64,000 bases of DNA from NCBI RefSeq assembly GCF_009909615.1, contig NZ_WWNE01000012.1, positions 248,001 through 312,000 of the forward strand, read 5' to 3'. This document shows, piece after piece, positions 28,903 through 63,310 of this stretch (positions within the stretch are counted from its first letter, which is position 1; every line of letters begins with the position of its first letter). Origin of the DNA: Acidiluteibacter ferrifornacis. GTDB taxonomy: Bacteria > Bacteroidota > Bacteroidia > Flavobacteriales_E > Vicingaceae. Made by a program: the position numbers and the translations under genes. The notes beneath the pieces are model-generated. The model had not been told where the DNA came from. It worked only from the letters and a program-made list of their open reading frames with translations, and ran no database searches.

Positions 28903-30060
28903 TTATTCCGCAACCGCTGCAACCTCGTTTTCTTCTACTGTTTCTTCAGTATTAGTTGTATCAGACGGTGTTTCTTCTACTTTTTCATCCACCCAAATCT
29001 CTCCTTGTGGATCTTTCGCGTTCGGAGGATTAGAGCCTTGAATACTTATAATGTAACTTGCAATTTGTTGCATTTGAACAGGACTAAACTGACTTTGCCA
29101 AGCAATCATCCCCTTTGCAGGAATACCGTATTTAATAGATTTAAAGATATTGCTAATGCCTCCACCATGTATCCAGTATTCATCGGTTAGGTTTGGACCT
29201 ACAAGTCCCTCCGCTAAAGCCCCGTGACACGTTGCACAGTTTCCTTTATAGATGTTTGCACCTGTAGTAATTGCATCTAAATCAACTAGCAAGGTAACAT
29301 TGTCTTCTGTCAATTGCTCACCACCACTTTCCAATGCTTCAGCTTTAGCCTCTGTAGCGGCTAACATTTCTGATTCATATTCTTGTAATTGTAATTCTCC
29401 GCTACCTGTAATATGAAATCGAATTAAATAAACAAATGCAAAAATGATAGTTCCGTAGAACATGTACTTCCACCATGGTGGTAGATTGTTGTCTAATTCT
29501 TTAATACCATCATAATCGTGATCCAACATTACTGTAGCTTCTTCTTCTACAGGAACTCTATCTACCAATTTACTTCCAATAGTATCAAATACAGTATTCA
29601 TTTCATCTGCCGTAAAATCATCACCTCGTTTGTAGCGGATCATTGTTTTTAATGATCGAAATAGAATAGCAATGATTAATGCTAAGAAAGCAATTGTTGT
29701 GATTAATGACCAAAATAAGACATCACTCATTACAAATGGAACAGAAGTAGTCGTTTCATTTTGGGCATATGCACTAAGACCGCCGCCGGCAAGTACCAAC
29801 ACTGCTATGGCTTTTATAGTTTGTTCTGCTTTTGAGGATTTAGATTCTGGTGTTTCAATTTTACCGATACTGGAGATACTCTGACCAATAGCATGAATGA
29901 TGAGAAGTAATAATAAAATTACGCCCAACAATAAAGAGAGCAGAAATGCATCAGAAATTCCTGCATTGGCAGCCGCCGCATTTTCTGCTGCGAAAACGCT
30001 TACTGGGGCTAAACCTATTGCCATAACCGTTAGTATGGTTTTTATAGTTTGCTTTTTCAT
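28903..30060 (-). CDS. ccoP: cbb3 oxidase subunit III CcoP (mono-haem)
   Basis: A 385-residue protein with a single haem c site C275-A-T-C-H279 and a likely axial methionine at KGMIAW, unlike the dihaem CcoP of Proteobacteria but as usual in Bacteroidota. The N-terminal part is odd: a signal-like block plus helix (about 3-66) seems repeated at about 79-142, both starting Q-T-I-K and ending in a second signal-type site (VFAAE, AYAQN). A third helix (about 197-214) precedes the haem domain. It overlaps ccoQ by 4 bp. Confidence 0.93.
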   Translation of the reverse strand: MKKQTIKTILTVMAIGLAPVSVFAAENAAAANAGISDAFLLSLLLGVILLLLLIIHAIGQSISSIGKIETPESKSSKAEQTIKAIAVLVLAGGGLSAYAQNETTTSVPFVMSDVLFWSLITTIAFLALIIAILFRSLKTMIRYKRGDDFTADEMNTVFDTIGSKLVDRVPVEEEATVMLDHDYDGIKELDNNLPPWWKYMFYGTIIFAFVYLIRFHITGSGELQLQEYESEMLAATEAKAEALESGGEQLTEDNVTLLVDLDAITTGANIYKGNCATCHGALAEGLVGPNLTDEYWIHGGGISNIFKSIKYGIPAKGMIAWQSQFSPVQMQQIASYIISIQGSNPPNAKDPQGEIWVDEKVEETPSDTTNTEETVEENEVAAVAE

Positions 30061-30284: not shown

Positions 30285-32441
30285 TTATTGTTCAGTTTCT
30301 TTAGTTTCGATGTCTCTACCTAATCTTTGTAGGTATGCAATTAATGCCACAATCTCTCTATCTGGACTTACTTCAAAACCATCTTCTTCGAGTAAATCAC
30401 GCATTTCTTCAACGATTTCATTAGCTTGTTTAACAACATCGGCATTCGCACGTTCTGGGTAATCTTCCTCATAAGGAACTCCCAACGTAATCATTGCTCT
30501 AATTTTAGCAGCTGTAACGGTGGTGTCATAACTTTTGTCTAACAACCATGGATAAGCTGGCATGATAGAACCATCAGATACACTACGAGGGTCATACATA
30601 TGCTTGAAATGCCAAGAGTTAGGTTTGCGTAATTTGCTGCTTCCTTCTCTAGCTAAATCGGGTCCTGTACGCTTAGATCCCCACAAGAATGGGTGGTCAT
30701 AAACAAACTCTCCAGCTTTTGAATATTCCCCATATCGCTCTGTTTCAGATCTAAATGGGCGAATCATTTGAGTATGACAGCCAACACATCCTTCTTGGAT
30801 ATAAATGTCTCTACCATGCAACTCTAGTGGGGTGTATGGTTTTACAGCCTCTATTGTTGGAATGTTGGATTTAACTAAGAACGTCGGTACCATTTCAATA
30901 ATTCCACCAATCAAAATGACAATCAAAGAGCCTATTAGCATTAAGGTTGGCTTACGCTCAAATAATCTATGCCAGTGTTCGTCTTTATGATTTTTAGACA
31001 GTTCTGCCATTGGTGCAGCTTCTGCCGCCTCATTTTTCTCAAAAGAACCAGATTTTGCGGTTTTAATCAAGTTGTAAACCATGGTCAATACCCCGATGTA
31101 GTATAATAGTCCTCCAATTGCTCGGTAAGCGTACATTGGTAAAATATTAGTTACTGTTTCTAGGAAGTTAGGGTATTTTAAGAATCCATCAGCTGTAAAG
31201 TCATTCCACATTTGGCTTTGTGCAAATCCTGCCCAGTACAACGGAATAGCGTAAAACAAGATTCCTAAAGTTCCAATCCAAAAGTGGAAGTTGGCTAATT
31301 TTTGTGAATACAATTTGGTTTTGAATAGTATTGGCCATAGGTAATACAACATACCGAAGGTTAAGAAACCATTCCATCCTAATGCTCCTACGTGAACGTG
31401 TGCTACAATCCAATCGGTAAAGTGGGCAATCGCGTTAACGTTTTTCAACGACAACATTGGACCCTCAAAAGTGGACATACCATATGCAGTAATAGCCACC
31501 ACCATAAATTTCAATACCACACTGTCTCTTACTTTATCCCAAGCACCTCTTAAGGTCAATAAACCGTTAATCATACCACCCCAAGATGGAGCAATAAGCA
31601 TTACAGAAAACACAACTCCTAAAGATTGTGCCCAATCTGGTAAAGCAGTGTAAAGTAAGTGGTGCGGTCCAGCCCAAATGTATAAGAAAATCAAAGCCCA
31701 AAAGTGGATGATAGACAGCCTATAGGAGAATACAGGACGATTAGCTGCTTTAGGAACAAAGTAGTACATCAATCCCAAATATGGAGTGGTTAAGAAAAAT
31801 GCAACCGCATTGTGTCCATACCACCATTGCACTAGCGCATCTTGAACTCCAGCATACCAAGAATAACTCTTCATAAAAGTTACTGGAATCTCAAAAGAAT
31901 TGACAATATGAAGAACTGCTACTGTAACAAAGGTGGCAATGTAAAACCAAATAGCTACATATAAATGACGCTCTCTTCTTTTTAGTATTGTAGCAAATAG
32001 ATTCCATCCAAAAACTACCCATATTAAGGTAATCGCTATATCAATTGGCCATTCTAACTCAGCGTACTCTTTGGAAGTTGTGAACCCTAGAGGCAACGTA
32101 ATTGCTGCAGCTACGATTATTAATTGCCAACCCCAAAAGTTAATCTTACTTAGTAAGTCGCTGTACATGCGGGTTTTTAATAATCGCTGTAGCGAATAAT
32201 AAACTCCTGCAAATATTCCGTTTCCTACAAAGGCAAAAATCACTGCATTGGTGTGCAATGGTCTTATTCTACCAAAGGAAGTGAATTCGATGCCTAAATT
32301 GGCGGCAGGAAAAATAAGTTGTGTAGCGGCTAACAGACCCACTAACATTCCAATAACGCCCCAAAAAATGGTGGCGTTTCCAAAGAGCCGGACAATGTTG
32401 TTGTCGTAGCTGAATTGTTCTTTTTGCATGGTTGTGTTCAT
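30285..32441 (-). CDS. ccoNO: Fused cbb3 oxidase subunits I and II (CcoNO)
   Basis: A 718-residue fusion found in Bacteroidota. Residues about 1-480 are the 12-helix haem-copper core, including WWYGHNAVAFFLTTPYLG and DWIVAHVHVGALGWNG with the histidine ligands of the binuclear centre. Residues about 500-718 are the CcoO part with one helix and a haem c site in QEGCVGCHTQMIRPF. The enzyme reduces O2 to water with high affinity. It follows ccoS with a 1-bp overlap. Confidence 0.97.
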   Translation of the reverse strand: MNTTMQKEQFSYDNNIVRLFGNATIFWGVIGMLVGLLAATQLIFPAANLGIEFTSFGRIRPLHTNAVIFAFVGNGIFAGVYYSLQRLLKTRMYSDLLSKINFWGWQLIIVAAAITLPLGFTTSKEYAELEWPIDIAITLIWVVFGWNLFATILKRRERHLYVAIWFYIATFVTVAVLHIVNSFEIPVTFMKSYSWYAGVQDALVQWWYGHNAVAFFLTTPYLGLMYYFVPKAANRPVFSYRLSIIHFWALIFLYIWAGPHHLLYTALPDWAQSLGVVFSVMLIAPSWGGMINGLLTLRGAWDKVRDSVVLKFMVVAITAYGMSTFEGPMLSLKNVNAIAHFTDWIVAHVHVGALGWNGFLTFGMLYYLWPILFKTKLYSQKLANFHFWIGTLGILFYAIPLYWAGFAQSQMWNDFTADGFLKYPNFLETVTNILPMYAYRAIGGLLYYIGVLTMVYNLIKTAKSGSFEKNEAAEAAPMAELSKNHKDEHWHRLFERKPTLMLIGSLIVILIGGIIEMVPTFLVKSNIPTIEAVKPYTPLELHGRDIYIQEGCVGCHTQMIRPFRSETERYGEYSKAGEFVYDHPFLWGSKRTGPDLAREGSSKLRKPNSWHFKHMYDPRSVSDGSIMPAYPWLLDKSYDTTVTAAKIRAMITLGVPYEEDYPERANADVVKQANEIVEEMRDLLEEDGFEVSPDREIVALIAYLQRLGRDIETKETEQ

Positions 32442-32632
32442 TATTGATTTAATTTATCTGGTTGTTTTTGATTAACTGAATTGGTTTCTTTTGGTTTGTC
32501 GTCGAATAACATTCTAACGGATGGAGTATAGTCATCATCATACTGACCAGCTTTTACTGACCAAACAAATGCCACCAAAAATCCTATGGCGACCGTTAAG
32601 CTGACGATAATTAGAATGATTAAAACATTCAT
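32441..32632 (-). CDS. ccoS: cbb3 oxidase assembly protein CcoS
   Basis: A 63-residue protein with one N-terminal helix (LIILIIVSLTVAIGFLVAFVW) and the family tail SVKAGQYDDDYTPSVRMLFDD. CcoS is required for cofactor insertion into CcoN. Here it leads the oxidase operon, whose FNR-like box and -7 element lie just upstream. Confidence 0.93.
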   Translation of the reverse strand: MNVLIILIIVSLTVAIGFLVAFVWSVKAGQYDDDYTPSVRMLFDDKPKETNSVNQKQPDKLNQ

Positions 32633-32648
32633 AATTTTTAATTTATTC

Positions 32649-32691
32649 CAAAGTTGGTAATTGAAGAATCGTTAAAAAATGATAATTATCA
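32649..32691 (-). promoter_or_regulatory. FNR-like promoter of the cco operon
   Basis: The perfect palindrome TGATAATTATCA (32680-32691) is an FNR core site, TGAT-N4-ATCA. Its centre lies 36.5 bp from the end of a -7-like element on the minus strand (CAACTTTG, 32649-32656). With a start site a few bases beyond that, the box is centred near -41, the class II activator position. Confidence 0.72.
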
Positions 32692-32710
32692 GTTTTATAT
32701 AAAAATACAA

Positions 32711-33247
32711 TTACAAATCACAATCTTCTGAAATACTTGAATAAATTGGGTGAGTAATTTCAAACTTTTTCAATTCAGGATCAAAAATTTCCCATTGCGT
32801 AATGCGATCCACGTGCAAGTGTAAACTCTTTGTTTGTTCTGAAGACGAATTACGCACGAGGTGAAAGCCCATATCGTCATTTAAATAGTAAAATTCACCT
32901 TTCTTAATGGTAATGGAGTTTTGCTTATGAGCTGTTTTGGCATCTCGATCGACCGAGTAAGTATCAATCGTTAATTCACCTTCTAAGACTTGAATCCAAC
33001 CTTCCTGAAAACTGTAACTATGAATAGGAGAGTGTTGATTTGGTTGCCAGCACATCAGTAATAATTCATATTCCTCGCAAGAACTGATGCAATTACGAGT
33101 GTAATGACTTGTCGACCATTTTTCAAATGGACTCCATTCGGATAAAGGAATATCTAGCGCTTTTAGAATTTCCATATAACCTCCATATCCCGGGCCTAAG
33201 TTGATGTTTTTGAGTAATTGTTCGACAGTTTTGATAGATGGTATCAT
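32711..33247 (-). CDS. Cysteine dioxygenase family protein
   Basis: A 178-residue cupin of the type I cysteine dioxygenase family, which oxidises cysteine to cysteine sulfinate with O2 and ferrous iron. The iron histidines are in HSPIHSYSFQEGWIQVLEGEL, with the third at HLHVDRI (SLHLHVDRITQWEIFD). It has its own FNR-like promoter, matching those of ccoS and ccoI, so it is likely controlled with the oxidase. Confidence 0.88.
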   Translation of the reverse strand: MIPSIKTVEQLLKNINLGPGYGGYMEILKALDIPLSEWSPFEKWSTSHYTRNCISSCEEYELLLMCWQPNQHSPIHSYSFQEGWIQVLEGELTIDTYSVDRDAKTAHKQNSITIKKGEFYYLNDDMGFHLVRNSSSEQTKSLHLHVDRITQWEIFDPELKKFEITHPIYSSISEDCDL

Positions 33248-33272
33248 AGTTTGTTGTTTTAAAATTGTGGCA

Positions 33273-33315
33273 TAAAATTAAAACCGCATAAAAAGAGATA
33301 AAATGATAACTGTCA
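33273..33315 (-). promoter_or_regulatory. FNR-like promoter of cysteine dioxygenase
   Basis: TGATAACTGTCA (33304-33315; TGAT-N4-GTCA, one mismatch to the dyad) is centred 36.5 bp from the end of TAATTTTA (minus strand, 33273-33280; 5 of 6 fixed bases of TAnnTTTG). The geometry is identical to the ccoS and ccoI promoters. Confidence 0.62.
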
Positions 33316-33726
33316 GGTTTGATTGATTTTTTGAACTATTCTAAATCATGTGAACTTTCCAAGAGGTGTTTGATTGTATATCTTTTCAATTTTACCAGTG
33401 CGGCAAAGAGAACAAAAAGGGGCATAGCAGATTAAAGGTAATTGTAGAAAATCATTTGAGAAAGTGGTTTATTGAATGATCAACCATTAAACTCATCATA
33501 AGATTCATATACTCTTTGCCTTTGCGGTGAAAAAAAAGGATGTTAGCTTGGAAAGAATGGCTTCAAAGACGCGATAGTAATCTATATATTAGTACCTTAG
33601 AAAAAAAACAATTAAGTCATGACTGAAAATGAAGTTCTTGCAGATATTCATAAGGTTCAACTCATATAATTAAAAGATGATGTAAAACGTTTACTTATAA
33701 ATATTAATAACTCACACCTAAAACTG
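33316..33726. other. Intergenic region with a possible gene relic
   Basis: No intact gene is seen. At 33619-33669 a short frame reads MTENEVLADIHKV... and stops after 16 codons; the same frame then continues LKDDVKRLLININ. Together this looks like the start of a small antitoxin- or DUF2281-like protein broken by a TAA. The stretch 33511-33577 translates as LFAFAVKKKDVSLER, a type of residue often seen beside decayed Bacteroidota genes. The evidence is weak. Confidence 0.3.
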
Positions 33727-34194
33727 ATGCTTAAATTTTTACTAATCATACTAATTGCTTTTTTTACATTTAATTCTTTTTCACAAACGAATTCAGTTTG
33801 CGAACCTCTAGTAGTAAACGATAGTTTATTTCAACTGAAGTCTGATCCCTACAATTTTGGTAAATCAAGTGGAAATTATGTGCAAAGTGTCCGGAGAGAT
33901 TTAGTTACTGATATCAATGACATTATTACCATTGAAAAAGATTGTATAATTTTTAAAATAAACTATGCCTGCGGATGTGGTGATAACAACAAACAATTGG
34001 TTTCTAATGGAATCCTACTTCAAGACAACCAAGGGCTGCAATATTATGAAATCAAGTTCCTTTTCATCAATTATAACAAAGGCTGTAAGGCATTGTGTCA
34101 CGATCTTCTTTATTACGATATTTCAGAATTGAAAAATTCTACAGAATCGGTGTACTTAAAGTTCGACGAGTTTGAAGATTTAATTGAATATTGA
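33727..34194 (+). CDS. Secreted cysteine-containing protein, 155 aa
   Basis: A signal peptide (MLKFLLIILIAFFTFNSFSQ) is followed by a beta-rich domain with several cysteines (SVCEPL, KDCIIF, YACGCGDN, KGCKALCHDLL), which could form disulfides or bind metal. I recognise no family. It is convergent with ccoI. Confidence 0.6.
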   Translation: MLKFLLIILIAFFTFNSFSQTNSVCEPLVVNDSLFQLKSDPYNFGKSSGNYVQSVRRDLVTDINDIITIEKDCIIFKINYACGCGDNNKQLVSNGILLQDNQGLQYYEIKFLFINYNKGCKALCHDLLYYDISELKNSTESVYLKFDEFEDLIEY

Positions 34195-34234
34195 GAAGTT
34201 TGAAATTTTAGGAGTAATCTATAGGGCATTTACA

Positions 34235-36604
34235 TTATTTCACCTTCTTGCTCGCTATCCATACTGCGATGGTTGAAAATCCAACAACAGAAATAGAGCT
34301 AATGGGCATTAGAATAGCGGCTGTAACAGGTGAGAGCAATCCTTGAACGGCAAAGCTGAGTCCAACAATATTGTACAGAAAGGATATGATAAAACTGATG
34401 ATAACAATTTTCTTTGCGCTTTTTGCAAAAGTTAAAATTTGATCCAATTGATTGAAAGCTTCCGCAGATAAAATAAGATCACAAGCAGGGGAGAAGGCAT
34501 TGACATCTTCTGCTAAAGCCACTCCTACGTTGCTCTTCTTTAACGCACCAGCATCATTGAGTCCATCTCCTACCATCATTACTTTTAAGTTCTGATTTTG
34601 CAACTGCTCGATATAATCCATCTTTTCTTTAGGACTTTGATTAAAAATTAATTCACTTCCTTTTGGAAACATAGAAATCAACCGATCCTTTTGCCCATCA
34701 TTATCACCAGAAATTAATGATAAACCATAGTTTGTACTTAATTTATTGAGAAGCTGATCTAATCCAGTTCGATATTCGTTGAATATGGTATAATACCCAA
34801 TGGGTTCATCATTGATGGAAATTGCAACAACTGAATCGTTAGTGTTTTTTATGTTCATCCCAACCCATTTGGGTGCACCGATTTTATAACGCAATTCTCC
34901 CACTTTTGCAGTTAATCCTTTTGCAGGAATTTCTTCAAATTCGCTTATAGTAGACCAAGTTTCTTGTTGAATGGAGTTAAATATCAGTCGACTAAGTGGA
35001 TGGTTCGATTGCCTTAATATGGTGTGAATATCGCTTTGTTGGGCAGCGGTTAGTGGGGTGCCATTGTAATTTACCGATTGGTTATTGCTATATGTTAGTG
35101 TGCCTGTTTTATCAAAAACAATATGATTTAGATTGGCCATATCTTCTACTACAGCAGATTCTCTTAAGTAACAATTTTGACGACCCAACCACCTGGTAGT
35201 GTGTCCAAAAGTAAAGGGTGCGGCTAACGCTAAAGCACAAGGACAAGCAACTATTAATACCGCAGAAACCACTTGAACAACGGCATGCAGTCCATTAGCC
35301 CATTGCAATACACCAGAAATGATGGCAATAATTAGGATAATTGGAGTAAACCATTCACTTATTTTATCGGTAATTTCTGAGAAATGATTGTGGGTTTTTA
35401 TGGTTTCTACCTGGTCGTTCCATAAGCTTGTCAACTTACTTTGAGATAAAGGTCGAAGTGCTTCTATTTCTATTGCTTCTCCTTGTTGACGACCTCCGGC
35501 ATAAATACGGTCACCAGATTCTTTACTGATGGGTTTGGACTCACCAGTAGCAAAACTATTATCAATTTGAGCGTCACCTCGAATTAATATTCCGTCAACG
35601 GGAATCAATTCTCCATTGTGAATTAAAATCCGGTCTCCTTTTTGAATTTCATTGACTGGAATGGTTTTCTCTTCGTTGTTTTTGATTCTAACAACTGATA
35701 TGGGAAAGTAGGCTTTATAATCTCTTTCGAAAGATAATCGGTGATAGGTTTTTTCTTGAAAAATACGTCCCAACAATAAAAAGAACAATAAACCACATAA
35801 AGAATCGAAATAGCCCGCTCCTGTTTGAGAAACGACTTCATAAAGACTTCTTATATAAAGCACCAAAACGCCTAATGCAATAGGAACATCAATGTTTAGC
35901 CGCTTACTTCTTAAACTGATCCATGCAGATTTGAAATAATCCCATCCACTATAAAAAGCTACTGGAGTGGCGATAAGTAGATTTAAATAGCCAAACCAAA
36001 CAGCAAACTCTTCATAGCTTTCAAGGTCTAATCCAAAGTATTCCGGCAAACTTAATAGCATGATGTTTCCAAAAGCAAACCCTGCCAAACCAACTTGATA
36101 CATTAATTTCCGACTGATGGCTTTCTTTTTCGGTTGATCAATACGGTCCAAGTTAATCTCTGGTTCATATCCGATATTGGCCAATAATTCTACTAATTGT
36201 CGGAGTGAAAATTCAGTATTAGAGAAGGTCACTGTAACTTCCTTTTTGAGAAAGTTAACTCTACTTTGTTGTATAGCAGGCTGCAAACGATATAGATTTT
36301 CCAACAGCCATAAACAAGAACTGCAATGTATCTGTGGTAAATATAAATGCGTTCTACTGATGGAATCGTCCTTGTAGTCTAATAACTGCTCTTTTATGTC
36401 TTCGTTTTCGAGGTAGGCAAACTTGTCTTGTTTCTGGACTTTAGGCGAAATGCCTGGCATTTGCTCCAGTTTGTAATAGTCGCATAAATCATTTTGATTT
36501 AAAATTTCATAAACAGTCTGACAACCTTGACAACAGAACGATTTATCTTCAAATTTTATTACTTCCTCTTTACAAGGATCTCCACAGTGGTAACAAGTTG
36601 TCAT
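34235..36604 (-). CDS. ccoI: Copper-translocating P-type ATPase CcoI (FixI)
   Basis: A 789-residue heavy-metal P1B ATPase. It opens with a cysteine-rich domain (CYHCGDPC and FCCQGCQTVYEIL), then an HMA-like domain with HCSSC, eight helices, the ion-pore motif CPCALALAAPFTFG, the phosphorylation site DKTGTLT and GDGLNDAGAL. The N-terminal Cys-rich domain and position beside the cco genes identify it as the copper supplier for cbb3 oxidase. It has its own FNR-like promoter shared with the divergent fnr gene. Confidence 0.95.
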   Translation of the reverse strand: MTTCYHCGDPCKEEVIKFEDKSFCCQGCQTVYEILNQNDLCDYYKLEQMPGISPKVQKQDKFAYLENEDIKEQLLDYKDDSISRTHLYLPQIHCSSCLWLLENLYRLQPAIQQSRVNFLKKEVTVTFSNTEFSLRQLVELLANIGYEPEINLDRIDQPKKKAISRKLMYQVGLAGFAFGNIMLLSLPEYFGLDLESYEEFAVWFGYLNLLIATPVAFYSGWDYFKSAWISLRSKRLNIDVPIALGVLVLYIRSLYEVVSQTGAGYFDSLCGLLFFLLLGRIFQEKTYHRLSFERDYKAYFPISVVRIKNNEEKTIPVNEIQKGDRILIHNGELIPVDGILIRGDAQIDNSFATGESKPISKESGDRIYAGGRQQGEAIEIEALRPLSQSKLTSLWNDQVETIKTHNHFSEITDKISEWFTPIILIIAIISGVLQWANGLHAVVQVVSAVLIVACPCALALAAPFTFGHTTRWLGRQNCYLRESAVVEDMANLNHIVFDKTGTLTYSNNQSVNYNGTPLTAAQQSDIHTILRQSNHPLSRLIFNSIQQETWSTISEFEEIPAKGLTAKVGELRYKIGAPKWVGMNIKNTNDSVVAISINDEPIGYYTIFNEYRTGLDQLLNKLSTNYGLSLISGDNDGQKDRLISMFPKGSELIFNQSPKEKMDYIEQLQNQNLKVMMVGDGLNDAGALKKSNVGVALAEDVNAFSPACDLILSAEAFNQLDQILTFAKSAKKIVIISFIISFLYNIVGLSFAVQGLLSPVTAAILMPISSISVVGFSTIAVWIASKKVK

Positions 36605-36640
36605 GTCTATTTATATTGACTCTAAACATTTTTATAGGAC

Positions 36641-36683
36641 CAAAATTCCTTTTAAATTCAACTCAAAAGTATGATATTTGTCA
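36641..36683 (-). promoter_or_regulatory. FNR-like box between ccoI and the fnr-type gene
   Basis: TGATATTTGTCA (36672-36683) is centred 36.5 bp from the end of a minus-strand -7-like element (GAATTTTG, 36641-36648) serving ccoI. On the plus strand the box overlaps GATATTTG (36673-36680), a -7-like element for the regulator gene, which would suit repression of the regulator by itself. Confidence 0.62.
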
Positions 36684-36702: not shown

Positions 36703-37410
36703 ATGAAAGAAAAACTAGAGATTCCAAGTTGCCAAAAATGTGGCGCGAGACAAAAATCTGTTTTTTGTAGTCTTAACAGTGACCAACTCGTTCAACTCAA
36801 CGAGGAAAAGGGTTGCGATTTCTATTCCAAAGGGGAGATTATATTCAAAGAAGGCAGCTATTCTAAAGGACTTTTTTGTGTGAATAAAGGAAAGGTGAAG
36901 CTAAGTCGTTTGGGACAAAGCGGAAAGGAGCAGATTGTACGTTTTGCTACCGCAGGAGATGTTATGGGGTATAATTCCATGTTGAGTAAACGAGCATTAG
37001 GAGCTTCTGCCATTGCTTTAGAAGATAGTGTTGTGTGTTTTGTGCCCGCGGCTCATTTTTTTGAGTTAATCAAACAAGAGCCTGAATTTAGTTTGAAGAT
37101 GTTGGAATTAACAGCCAAAAACTGGGACAATGCATCGAAATTGATTACCAATATGGCTCAAAAAACCACTAAACAACGATTAGCTGAAATGTTATTGTGG
37201 TTAAAAGAAACTTTTGGTTTGGATAAAGACGACTGTATTGATGTTCAGCTTTCTAGAGAAGAAATTGCCAACATGGTGGGAACAGCCACGGAAGCAGTTA
37301 TTCGCTTATTAGCAGATTTTAAAAAGAACAAATTAATCAGTTTGGAAGGTAAACGTATTAAGCTATTAGACATCCACGGTTTAGTAATGATTGCTGATTT
37401 AGTGGATTGA
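36703..37410 (+). CDS. fnr: FNR-type transcription regulator with likely [4Fe-4S] cluster
   Basis: The start is taken at ATG 36703 (MKEKLEIPSCQKC), as the longer frame runs back into the ccoI gene. The 235-residue protein has a CRP-type sensor domain and a C-terminal helix-turn-helix (LSREEIANMVGTATEAVIRLLADF). Cysteines C10, C13 and C22 form an N-terminal group, and C112 in LEDSVVCFVP lines up with E. coli FNR C122, the fourth cluster ligand. Recognition-helix Glu and Arg are kept while the FNR Ser is Ile. It is the likely oxygen sensor for the cco genes. Confidence 0.87.
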   Translation: MKEKLEIPSCQKCGARQKSVFCSLNSDQLVQLNEEKGCDFYSKGEIIFKEGSYSKGLFCVNKGKVKLSRLGQSGKEQIVRFATAGDVMGYNSMLSKRALGASAIALEDSVVCFVPAAHFFELIKQEPEFSLKMLELTAKNWDNASKLITNMAQKTTKQRLAEMLLWLKETFGLDKDDCIDVQLSREEIANMVGTATEAVIRLLADFKKNKLISLEGKRIKLLDIHGLVMIADLVD

Positions 37411-61595: not shown

Positions 61596-63310
61596 TTCGG
61601 TATTGCCTACTAACTGTTGGATTATTGTTTGGTATTGCTACGTCAGCTCAGCAATCTAAGTTAAAGCAAGAGCTTTCTATTACTCTGAAGCAACAACGAC
61701 TAGAGGACGTTCTTTTTTTAATTGCAGAAAAAGGAGCTTTTAATATTTCGTTTAATCCAAAGGTAATTGAATCAGATAGTTTAATTACTGAAAGTTATCA
61801 AAAGGAAGAAGTTATATCGATCTTAAATGACTTGTTGCCTTCACATATAGAGGTAATAGATTTAGGTCACAGCATTCTACTTCGAGATGTGTCCATGCCA
61901 AAAACACCATTGAAAAAGATTGAAATGAGGGGTTTGATTCAAGATCAGAATGAAAAGCCTGTTTCGGGTGCACTACTCTTTGAGGTAGAGGGGTTGGTTT
62001 CTACTTTATCCGGGGAAGATGGTACGTTTCACCTAAATGAAAAGTTGCAGGAGTCAGGAAGGTTAACTTTCTCAGTAACTAAGGAAGGGTGCTTGGATAC
62101 ATTAGTTCAAATCTCAGTTAATAATGATCCGGTACTAATTCAATTAAATTGTAGATTAAAGGAGAATGAATTGATACCTCTGATGCCACTAAAAGAATAT
62201 ACATTACCCCATGTTCCTTATGTTTTAGTGCCTCTTAAAGTTCAAGAGAGTTCTACACAATCAAAGGCTACGTTATTTCGGAAGTATCAGTTTTCATTGG
62301 TGCCTGGTATTGGAACCAATCAGTTGTTGGGTGGATTGGTAGAAAATCAGTATTCGTTGAATTTAGTCGGCGGTTATAGTCTTGGAGTAAGTAAAATAGA
62401 AATGGGAGCTGGTTTTAATATTGTAAGAACCGATGCGCAGTATTTGCAAATGGCCGGAGGATTTAACATGGTGGGAGCTAATTTTAAAGGGCTACAAATG
62501 GCTGGAGGATTTAATTACGTGGGACATGATTATAATGGGGTTCAATTGACGGGAGGAGTCAATTATATTGGTTCAAATTTTCGAGGAACACAATTATCTG
62601 GAGGAGTCAACATAATCAATGGTAACTTCAATGGAGTTCAAATTTCAGGAGGATACAATCATGCACGTATATCTGATGGAATCCAATTGGCTGGAGGAAT
62701 AAATCTTGCGGATACGCTTATAGGACTCCAATTAGCACCAGTAAATGTAGTCAGAGTGATGAAAGGTGTTCAGGTTGGTGTAGTCAATGTGGCAGACAGT
62801 TCAACCGGTCCCATGTTTGGCTTAGTTAATATTGTTAGGAAGGGGGGAGTTCGTTCTTTAGAGCTTTCTTCAGATATATTGCCACATCTGAATTTGGTTT
62901 TCAAACTGGGGACTCCTCAATGGTATAATATATACTCAGCAGGTGGAAGTTATATTAATAATCAAATCCTTTGGAATTATGGATTGGGTTTTGGGACAAG
63001 GCGTATTCTAAAAAGCCAACGACCTATTTATTATGAATCTATGGTTCACTGGTTATTTGAAGGAAAAAGAGATCAACCAATGCATTATGGATTGTGGAGT
63101 TCGCAAGTTGCCATAGGAAATAAGAGTTTTAGGAAAATTCAGCTGAGTGCAGGGCCAACTTTTAATTTATTATTATTCAATCCTAGTAATGCTTTAGAAG
63201 GAACAAAATCAATTCTTCCCTATCGTTTTTTATCGGTTACTAATAGTAGTTTTCAAATAGATGCATGGGTTGGTTTTAAGATCTTTCTTGGTTTTGGAAA
63301 TAAATTCTAA
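61592..63310 (+). CDS. STN-domain protein with GG-N surface repeats
   Basis: The start is ATG 61592 (ATGA overlap with fecR); a TTG two codons upstream is less likely. The 572-residue protein has a signal peptide, an STN (secretin/TonB short N-terminal) domain at about 25-95 (LKQQRLEDVLFLIAEKG), a carboxypeptidase-regulatory-like domain at about 110-190, and then about nine 16-residue repeats (VQLTGGVNYIGSNFRG and similar, 280-425). It ends in barrel-like strands. STN normally sits on the receptor. Here it is separate, and the protein may be an outer-membrane partner that signals to FecR. Confidence 0.82.
   Translation: MIRYCLLTVGLLFGIATSAQQSKLKQELSITLKQQRLEDVLFLIAEKGAFNISFNPKVIESDSLITESYQKEEVISILNDLLPSHIEVIDLGHSILLRDVSMPKTPLKKIEMRGLIQDQNEKPVSGALLFEVEGLVSTLSGEDGTFHLNEKLQESGRLTFSVTKEGCLDTLVQISVNNDPVLIQLNCRLKENELIPLMPLKEYTLPHVPYVLVPLKVQESSTQSKATLFRKYQFSLVPGIGTNQLLGGLVENQYSLNLVGGYSLGVSKIEMGAGFNIVRTDAQYLQMAGGFNMVGANFKGLQMAGGFNYVGHDYNGVQLTGGVNYIGSNFRGTQLSGGVNIINGNFNGVQISGGYNHARISDGIQLAGGINLADTLIGLQLAPVNVVRVMKGVQVGVVNVADSSTGPMFGLVNIVRKGGVRSLELSSDILPHLNLVFKLGTPQWYNIYSAGGSYINNQILWNYGLGFGTRRILKSQRPIYYESMVHWLFEGKRDQPMHYGLWSSQVAIGNKSFRKIQLSAGPTFNLLLFNPSNALEGTKSILPYRFLSVTNSSFQIDAWVGFKIFLGFGNKF

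Follow-up and report, generated by a model that had tools for sequence, protein, structure and literature searches.

A CRP/FNR-type dyad at one fixed distance from the -7 element at three promoters of a cbb3 oxidase locus in Acidiluteibacter ferrifornacis

The FNR consensus site is TTGAT-N4-ATCAA. In Escherichia coli, FNR activates mostly from sites centred at -41.5, with 19 of 23 promoters lying within 4 nt of this position, and its class II promoters join a palindrome with a TGA/TCA core at -41.5 to respiratory targets (PMC3688515). How Bacteroidota control their genes at low oxygen has been little described. In Flavobacterium psychrophilum, transcription-start mapping puts the SigmaA element TAnnTTTG at -12 to -5, and low oxygen strongly induces the cbb3 oxidase of this species; the study reports no CRP/FNR activator site, and its main text does not contain the word "Crp" (PMC9723704).

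We analysed a window, the whole stretch of 64,000 nucleotides of Acidiluteibacter ferrifornacis DNA, which carries a cbb3 oxidase locus with the following genes:
28903..30060, minus strand, ccoP-like subunit III
30285..32441, minus strand, ccoN-ccoO fusion, cbb3 oxidase subunits I/II
32441..32632, minus strand, ccoS
32711..33247, minus strand, cysteine dioxygenase type I family protein
34235..36604, minus strand, ccoI-type copper P-type ATPase
36703..37410, plus strand, FNR-like regulator of 235 aa, a candidate activator, adjoining ccoI and divergent from it

Three of these genes, ccoS, the cysteine dioxygenase-like gene and ccoI, lie downstream of FNR-like boxes, and their identities agree with those given in an earlier sequence-only reading of the window. 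Downstream of the first box, ccoS and the fused ccoNO gene are followed on the same strand by ccoQ-, ccoP-, ccoG- and ccoH-like genes, where ccoQ, ccoG and ccoH were named from sequence and the gene order is conserved. A 155-aa secreted-looking protein with no Pfam match is encoded at 33727-34194, between the dioxygenase-like gene and ccoI.

Each of the three promoters combines a dyad with an octamer resembling the Bacteroidota -7 element:
32649..32656, minus strand, -7-like octamer CAACTTTG of the ccoS promoter, predicted +1 near 32644 (-7 to +1 offset from PMC9723704)
32680..32691, minus strand, dyad TGATAATTATCA, predicted activator site of the ccoS-ccoNO operon, centre at -41.5
33273..33280, minus strand, -7-like octamer TAATTTTA of the promoter of the cysteine dioxygenase-like gene, predicted +1 near 33268
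33304..33315, minus strand, dyad TGACAGTTATCA, predicted activator site of the cysteine dioxygenase-like gene
36641..36648, minus strand, -7-like octamer GAATTTTG of the ccoI promoter, predicted +1 near 36636
36672..36683, minus strand, dyad TGACAAATATCA, predicted activator site of ccoI

All three dodecamers lie where the sequence-only reading had placed them. The core that it gave for FNR sites, TGAT-N4-ATCA, holds for the ccoS box and fails for the other two, which are TGAT-N4-GTCA, so that the form common to all three is TGAY-N4-RTCA. The spacing it described was borne out, with the dyad centre 36.5 bp from the last base of the octamer, that is, a gap of 23 bp, at all three promoters, and each octamer matches five of the six fixed bases of TAnnTTTG on the minus strand. 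When the published -5 end of TAnnTTTG is added to these 36.5 bp, the dyad centre falls at -41.5 from the start site that we infer, which is the class II position proposed earlier. Compared with the FNR consensus, the inner TGAY-N4-RTCA is kept and the outer T and A differ, the predicted sites here being mostly (A/C)TGAY-N4-RTCA(T/G).

In the window there are 10 TGAY-N4-RTCA dyads, and an octamer with at least five of the six fixed bases at gap 23 accompanies these three only, in each case on the strand that faces its gene; the remaining seven lack one. The dyad pattern by itself is unremarkable, TGAT-N4-RTCA matching 14 times in the window against 8.2 expected, a mild over-representation without clear enrichment, and the signal therefore resides in the spacing. 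With a background of ∼6/648 per dyad and gap, taken from 80 related loci, three of three at one common gap has a probability of ∼1e-4 or less, the choice of gap being allowed for, in line with the earlier judgement that chance is unlikely. One site with a single mismatch, at 61758-61800, falls within an open frame and was taken as chance.

The spacing was then scored in 80 loci around ccoNO from other species, comprising 648 oriented dyads. An octamer of at least 5/6 was present at gap 23 in 93 of these dyads, against typically ∼6 at other gaps. Because orthologous promoters are only partly independent of one another, the count was repeated on 60 whole Bacteroidia genomes from 55 genera, where dyad-N23-TAnnTTTG gave 210 perfect matches and the mirrored pattern 6. 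A mirrored control is weak for palindromes, and for this reason a control with the same dyad and a different gap was added; N20 in place of N23 gave 14 matches in the same genomes. In a blind sample of 20 class-wide matches, the first listed per genome, 19 lay outside long open frames and 15 had a start codon 4-45 nt downstream. A coincidence of AT-rich palindromes with TTTG-like octamers, which the mild excess of the dyad alone might suggest, is contradicted by these gap controls and by the peak in both data sets, and we regard it as extremely improbable. The helical phase is constant across independent promoters of this genome, the 80 loci and the 60 genomes. The E. coli protein tolerates positions of about -41.5 ± 4, mostly with one site per peak (PMC3688515), whereas the spacing here is base-exact and the promoter element is TAnnTTTG, the same element at -12 to -5 as in the SigmaA promoters of F. 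psychrophilum (PMC9723704).

The geometry is best explained if the three dyads bind an activator of the CRP/FNR family at -41.5 of promoters that the primary sigma factor of Bacteroidota recognizes through its -7 element TAnnTTTG. Such a protein would touch RNA polymerase as a class II activator and would compensate for weak promoter elements. Against this explanation, the three -7 octamers are all 5/6 and none is perfect.

Between the end of the 36672 dyad and the ATG of the divergent fnr-like gene there are 19 bp, and no -7 element stands at gap 23 on that side, as would be expected if the dyads acted in repression or if this box mainly repressed the fnr-like gene. The exact -41.5 spacing at every gene-facing promoter speaks against such a role, as do relatives (L072, L088, and L091) whose dyad between ccoI and fnr is flanked by -7 elements at gap 23 in both directions, and we consider repression very unlikely. 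Dyads of this two-sided kind were seen at L072:6722, L088:7237, L091:6866, L085:20373, and L052:5868, an arrangement in which a single bound dimer might serve the divergent promoters on either side.

The same arrangement recurs elsewhere in the 3.5-Mb genome, which has 25 TGAYANNTRTCA places. Outside the window, exactly three of these have an octamer of at least 5/6 at gap 23, all of them intergenic:
L103, octamer 6/6, before a run of cytochrome c, fasciclin and nitrous oxide reductase (nosZ) genes
L098, octamer 6/6, before a lipid-transport-like protein
L008, octamer 5/6, before an acetyl-CoA hydrolase/transferase

Relaxing the dyad to TGAY-N4-RTCA yields four perfect matches genome-wide, all four intergenic and with a start codon 5-25 nt downstream. 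The sequence-only reading had seen a complete oxygen regulon at one locus. This does not hold, because about a dozen more intergenic candidate sites lie elsewhere in the genome and the window locus is thus one part of the regulon. The predicted regulon also includes the nos operon and a stress-protein cluster on the contig of L154, where promoters with tandem dyads precede universal stress proteins, an Mla-type lipid transporter and an RNA-processing-type metallo-hydrolase. Relatives have similar regions with such promoters before Hsp20-, nitroreductase- and PEP synthase-like genes and cbb3 genes (the genes of relatives were named by eye, those of this genome by domains). We take this content to recall hypoxia-survival regulons such as that of mycobacterial DosR. 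Two cysteine dioxygenase-like genes stand behind such sites in the genome (32711-33247 in the window and L154:4740-5255), and at L179 and L184 sites precede hydroxyphenylpyruvate dioxygenase-like and aromatic amino acid hydroxylase genes; these site-bearing enzymes consume oxygen, a substrate scarce at low oxygen.

The genes concerned fit oxygen control: those of the cbb3 oxidase and of its assembly, and the nos operon at another place in the genome. Across the class, the sampled matches precede genes for cytochrome c, a cytochrome c assembly protein, cupredoxin and PAS proteins, and also for metallo-hydrolase/rhodanese, peroxiredoxin and thioredoxin reductase-like proteins and some unrelated genes. 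Some class-wide sites thus stand before thiol or sulfur genes with no obvious link to oxygen, and other CRP/FNR paralogues may share the geometry, both of which count against a reading in terms of oxygen. The dyads could accordingly be read, with the same class II geometry, by a CRP/FNR protein sensing nitric oxide, sulfane sulfur or another non-oxygen signal, given that four CRP/FNR-type HTH proteins score over the cut-off in this genome and that boxes of relatives precede metallo-hydrolase/rhodanese, thioredoxin reductase-like and peroxiredoxin genes. The targets in the window are, however, cbb3 oxidase genes, a classic oxygen-regulated set, and the neighbouring regulator has conserved cysteines, so that we find a non-oxygen signal unlikely here. 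It is probable that the geometry is common to CRP/FNR paralogues, and the rule therefore points to CRP/FNR activation in general, and to oxygen control only where the gene content agrees. Of the FNR promoter rule proposed earlier, the class II CRP/FNR geometry finds strong support, both in this genome and in the class, with FNR itself as one candidate reader. The box is found at metallo-hydrolase/rhodanese genes at L165 (G000 C16:15000-21000), L181, and L190, and its neighbours in this genome include a TauE-like exporter and a further CRP-like regulator, which suggests a sulfur-sensing paralogue with the same geometry. No description of an FNR-type promoter rule for Bacteroidota was found in the open literature.

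The histogram of the 80 loci has a second peak, with 99 hits at gap 45, which reflects a further dyad at -63.5, exactly 22 bp upstream of the one at -41.5. Both dyads are complete in 24 promoters of these loci, and in promoters whose sole complete dyad is the one at -63.5, a degenerate form, mostly T(A/G)A-N6-TCA, occupies -41.5. Dyad pairs 22 bp apart number 28 in the cco loci, against at most 2 for any other spacing up to 120 bp. The tandem pattern recurs over 148 genomes of the phylum, with 13 in one genome and none in the mirrored control, and it is seen in many Bacteroidota promoters (L016-L095 and L155-L163) and on another contig of this genome (L154). The extra dyad is absent from all three promoters of the window. 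A second dyad 22 bp upstream, common in relatives, is also a difference from the E. coli FNR promoters, and no description of it was found in the open literature.

At the window promoters the most likely activator is the FNR-like protein, the product of the gene at 36703-37410 beside ccoI. It has a CRP/FNR fold with cNMP-type sensor and HTH_Crp domains, and its AlphaFold2 model has a mean pLDDT of 88.9. The fold is that of Aliivibrio fischeri holo-FNR (5e44 and others), with a TM score of ∼0.83 and with the N-terminal CxxC and the central Cys aligned; the recognition helix has ExxIR here in place of ExxSR. Cys 10, 13, 59, and 112 are invariant in 16 orthologues, and of these Cys10, Cys13, and Cys112 align with cysteines of A. 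fischeri FNR and Cys59 is extra. The third N-terminal Cys of classical FNR is not conserved among the 16, which leaves two N-terminal Cys (C10 and C13) among the four invariant ones, against the FNR pattern of three N-terminal and one central. The protein probably senses oxygen through an iron-sulfur cluster that would be held by these four cysteines.

A second candidate regulator is encoded within the cluster of universal stress proteins and tandem dyads:
L154:14047-15102 (G000 contig C20), receiver-CRP/FNR fusion
L154:14047-16373 (G000 contig C20:146046-148372), the fusion together with an adjacent FixL-type heme PAS histidine kinase

FixL is the closest match of the kinase PAS domain, and RSQHDEY and GIGR, which we take to be the FixL heme-pocket motifs with their His and Arg, are kept. 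Judged by its sequence, the protein joins a predicted FixL-like heme PAS domain, in which the proximal His and the distal Arg are present, to a histidine kinase. It shares with the FixL-FixJ-FixK system of rhizobia this kind of kinase and an output factor of CRP/FNR type. No FixJ-type response regulator was found adjacent as its partner; the neighbour is the fusion, in which, unlike in the rhizobial system, the functions of FixJ and FixK appear joined in one protein. The main reader of the dyads could then be this fusion, switched on by the adjacent kinase, a cascade from FixL to FixK reduced to two proteins, with the FNR-like protein secondary. The fusion has a recognition helix, GTASESIIRTL, similar to the one in the FNR-like protein, and its own gene lies inside the cluster of tandem-dyad promoters. 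The window promoters, however, are without the second dyad seen around the fusion gene.

We classed 48 whole genomes by identity and coverage thresholds, and found the FNR-like protein alone in 8, both regulators in 11 and the fusion alone in 29. Sites are present in the cco locus of 7 of the 8 genomes that have the FNR-like protein and in which no fusion was found, which argues against the fusion as the main reader, and in 28 of the 29 loci with a fusion and no close FNR-like match, which argues for it. The FNR-like protein is thus not needed for the sites. Sites at -41.5 or in tandem occur in all three regulator groups, so that regulator presence does not decide which protein acts at the window promoters. 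Nor could single or tandem architecture be assigned to a regulator in these 48 genomes, as both occur with either regulator alone. We hold a leading role of the fusion to be possible but somewhat doubtful.

Class II activation by a CRP/FNR-family protein, most likely the FNR-like protein, at three oxygen-responsive promoters is the reading that we favour and consider likely. As oxygen falls, the activator would turn on the cbb3 oxidase operon, ccoI and the cysteine dioxygenase-like gene. More tentatively, and with real doubt as to the whole, we propose an oxygen promoter characteristic of the phylum, in which two dyads lie exactly 22 bp apart, at -63.5 and -41.5, with the inner one often degenerate, and which a variant-cysteine FNR and a FixL-driven receiver-CRP/FNR fusion would read in parallel to control both the cbb3 oxidase and a stress cluster of dormancy-like character, with universal stress proteins, Hsp20, nitroreductases and PEP synthase. 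We know of no earlier description in open papers of the base-exact conservation across Bacteroidota, the tandem -63.5/-41.5 form or the two candidate sensors.

A base-exact rule makes candidate oxygen regulons predictable in thousands of genomes, N2O reducers included, and offers a means to test the way in which activators of the CRP/FNR family act at the atypical promoter of Bacteroidota. With dyads in tandem and two sensors in parallel, one may ask directly which sensor serves which promoter and why there are two sites.
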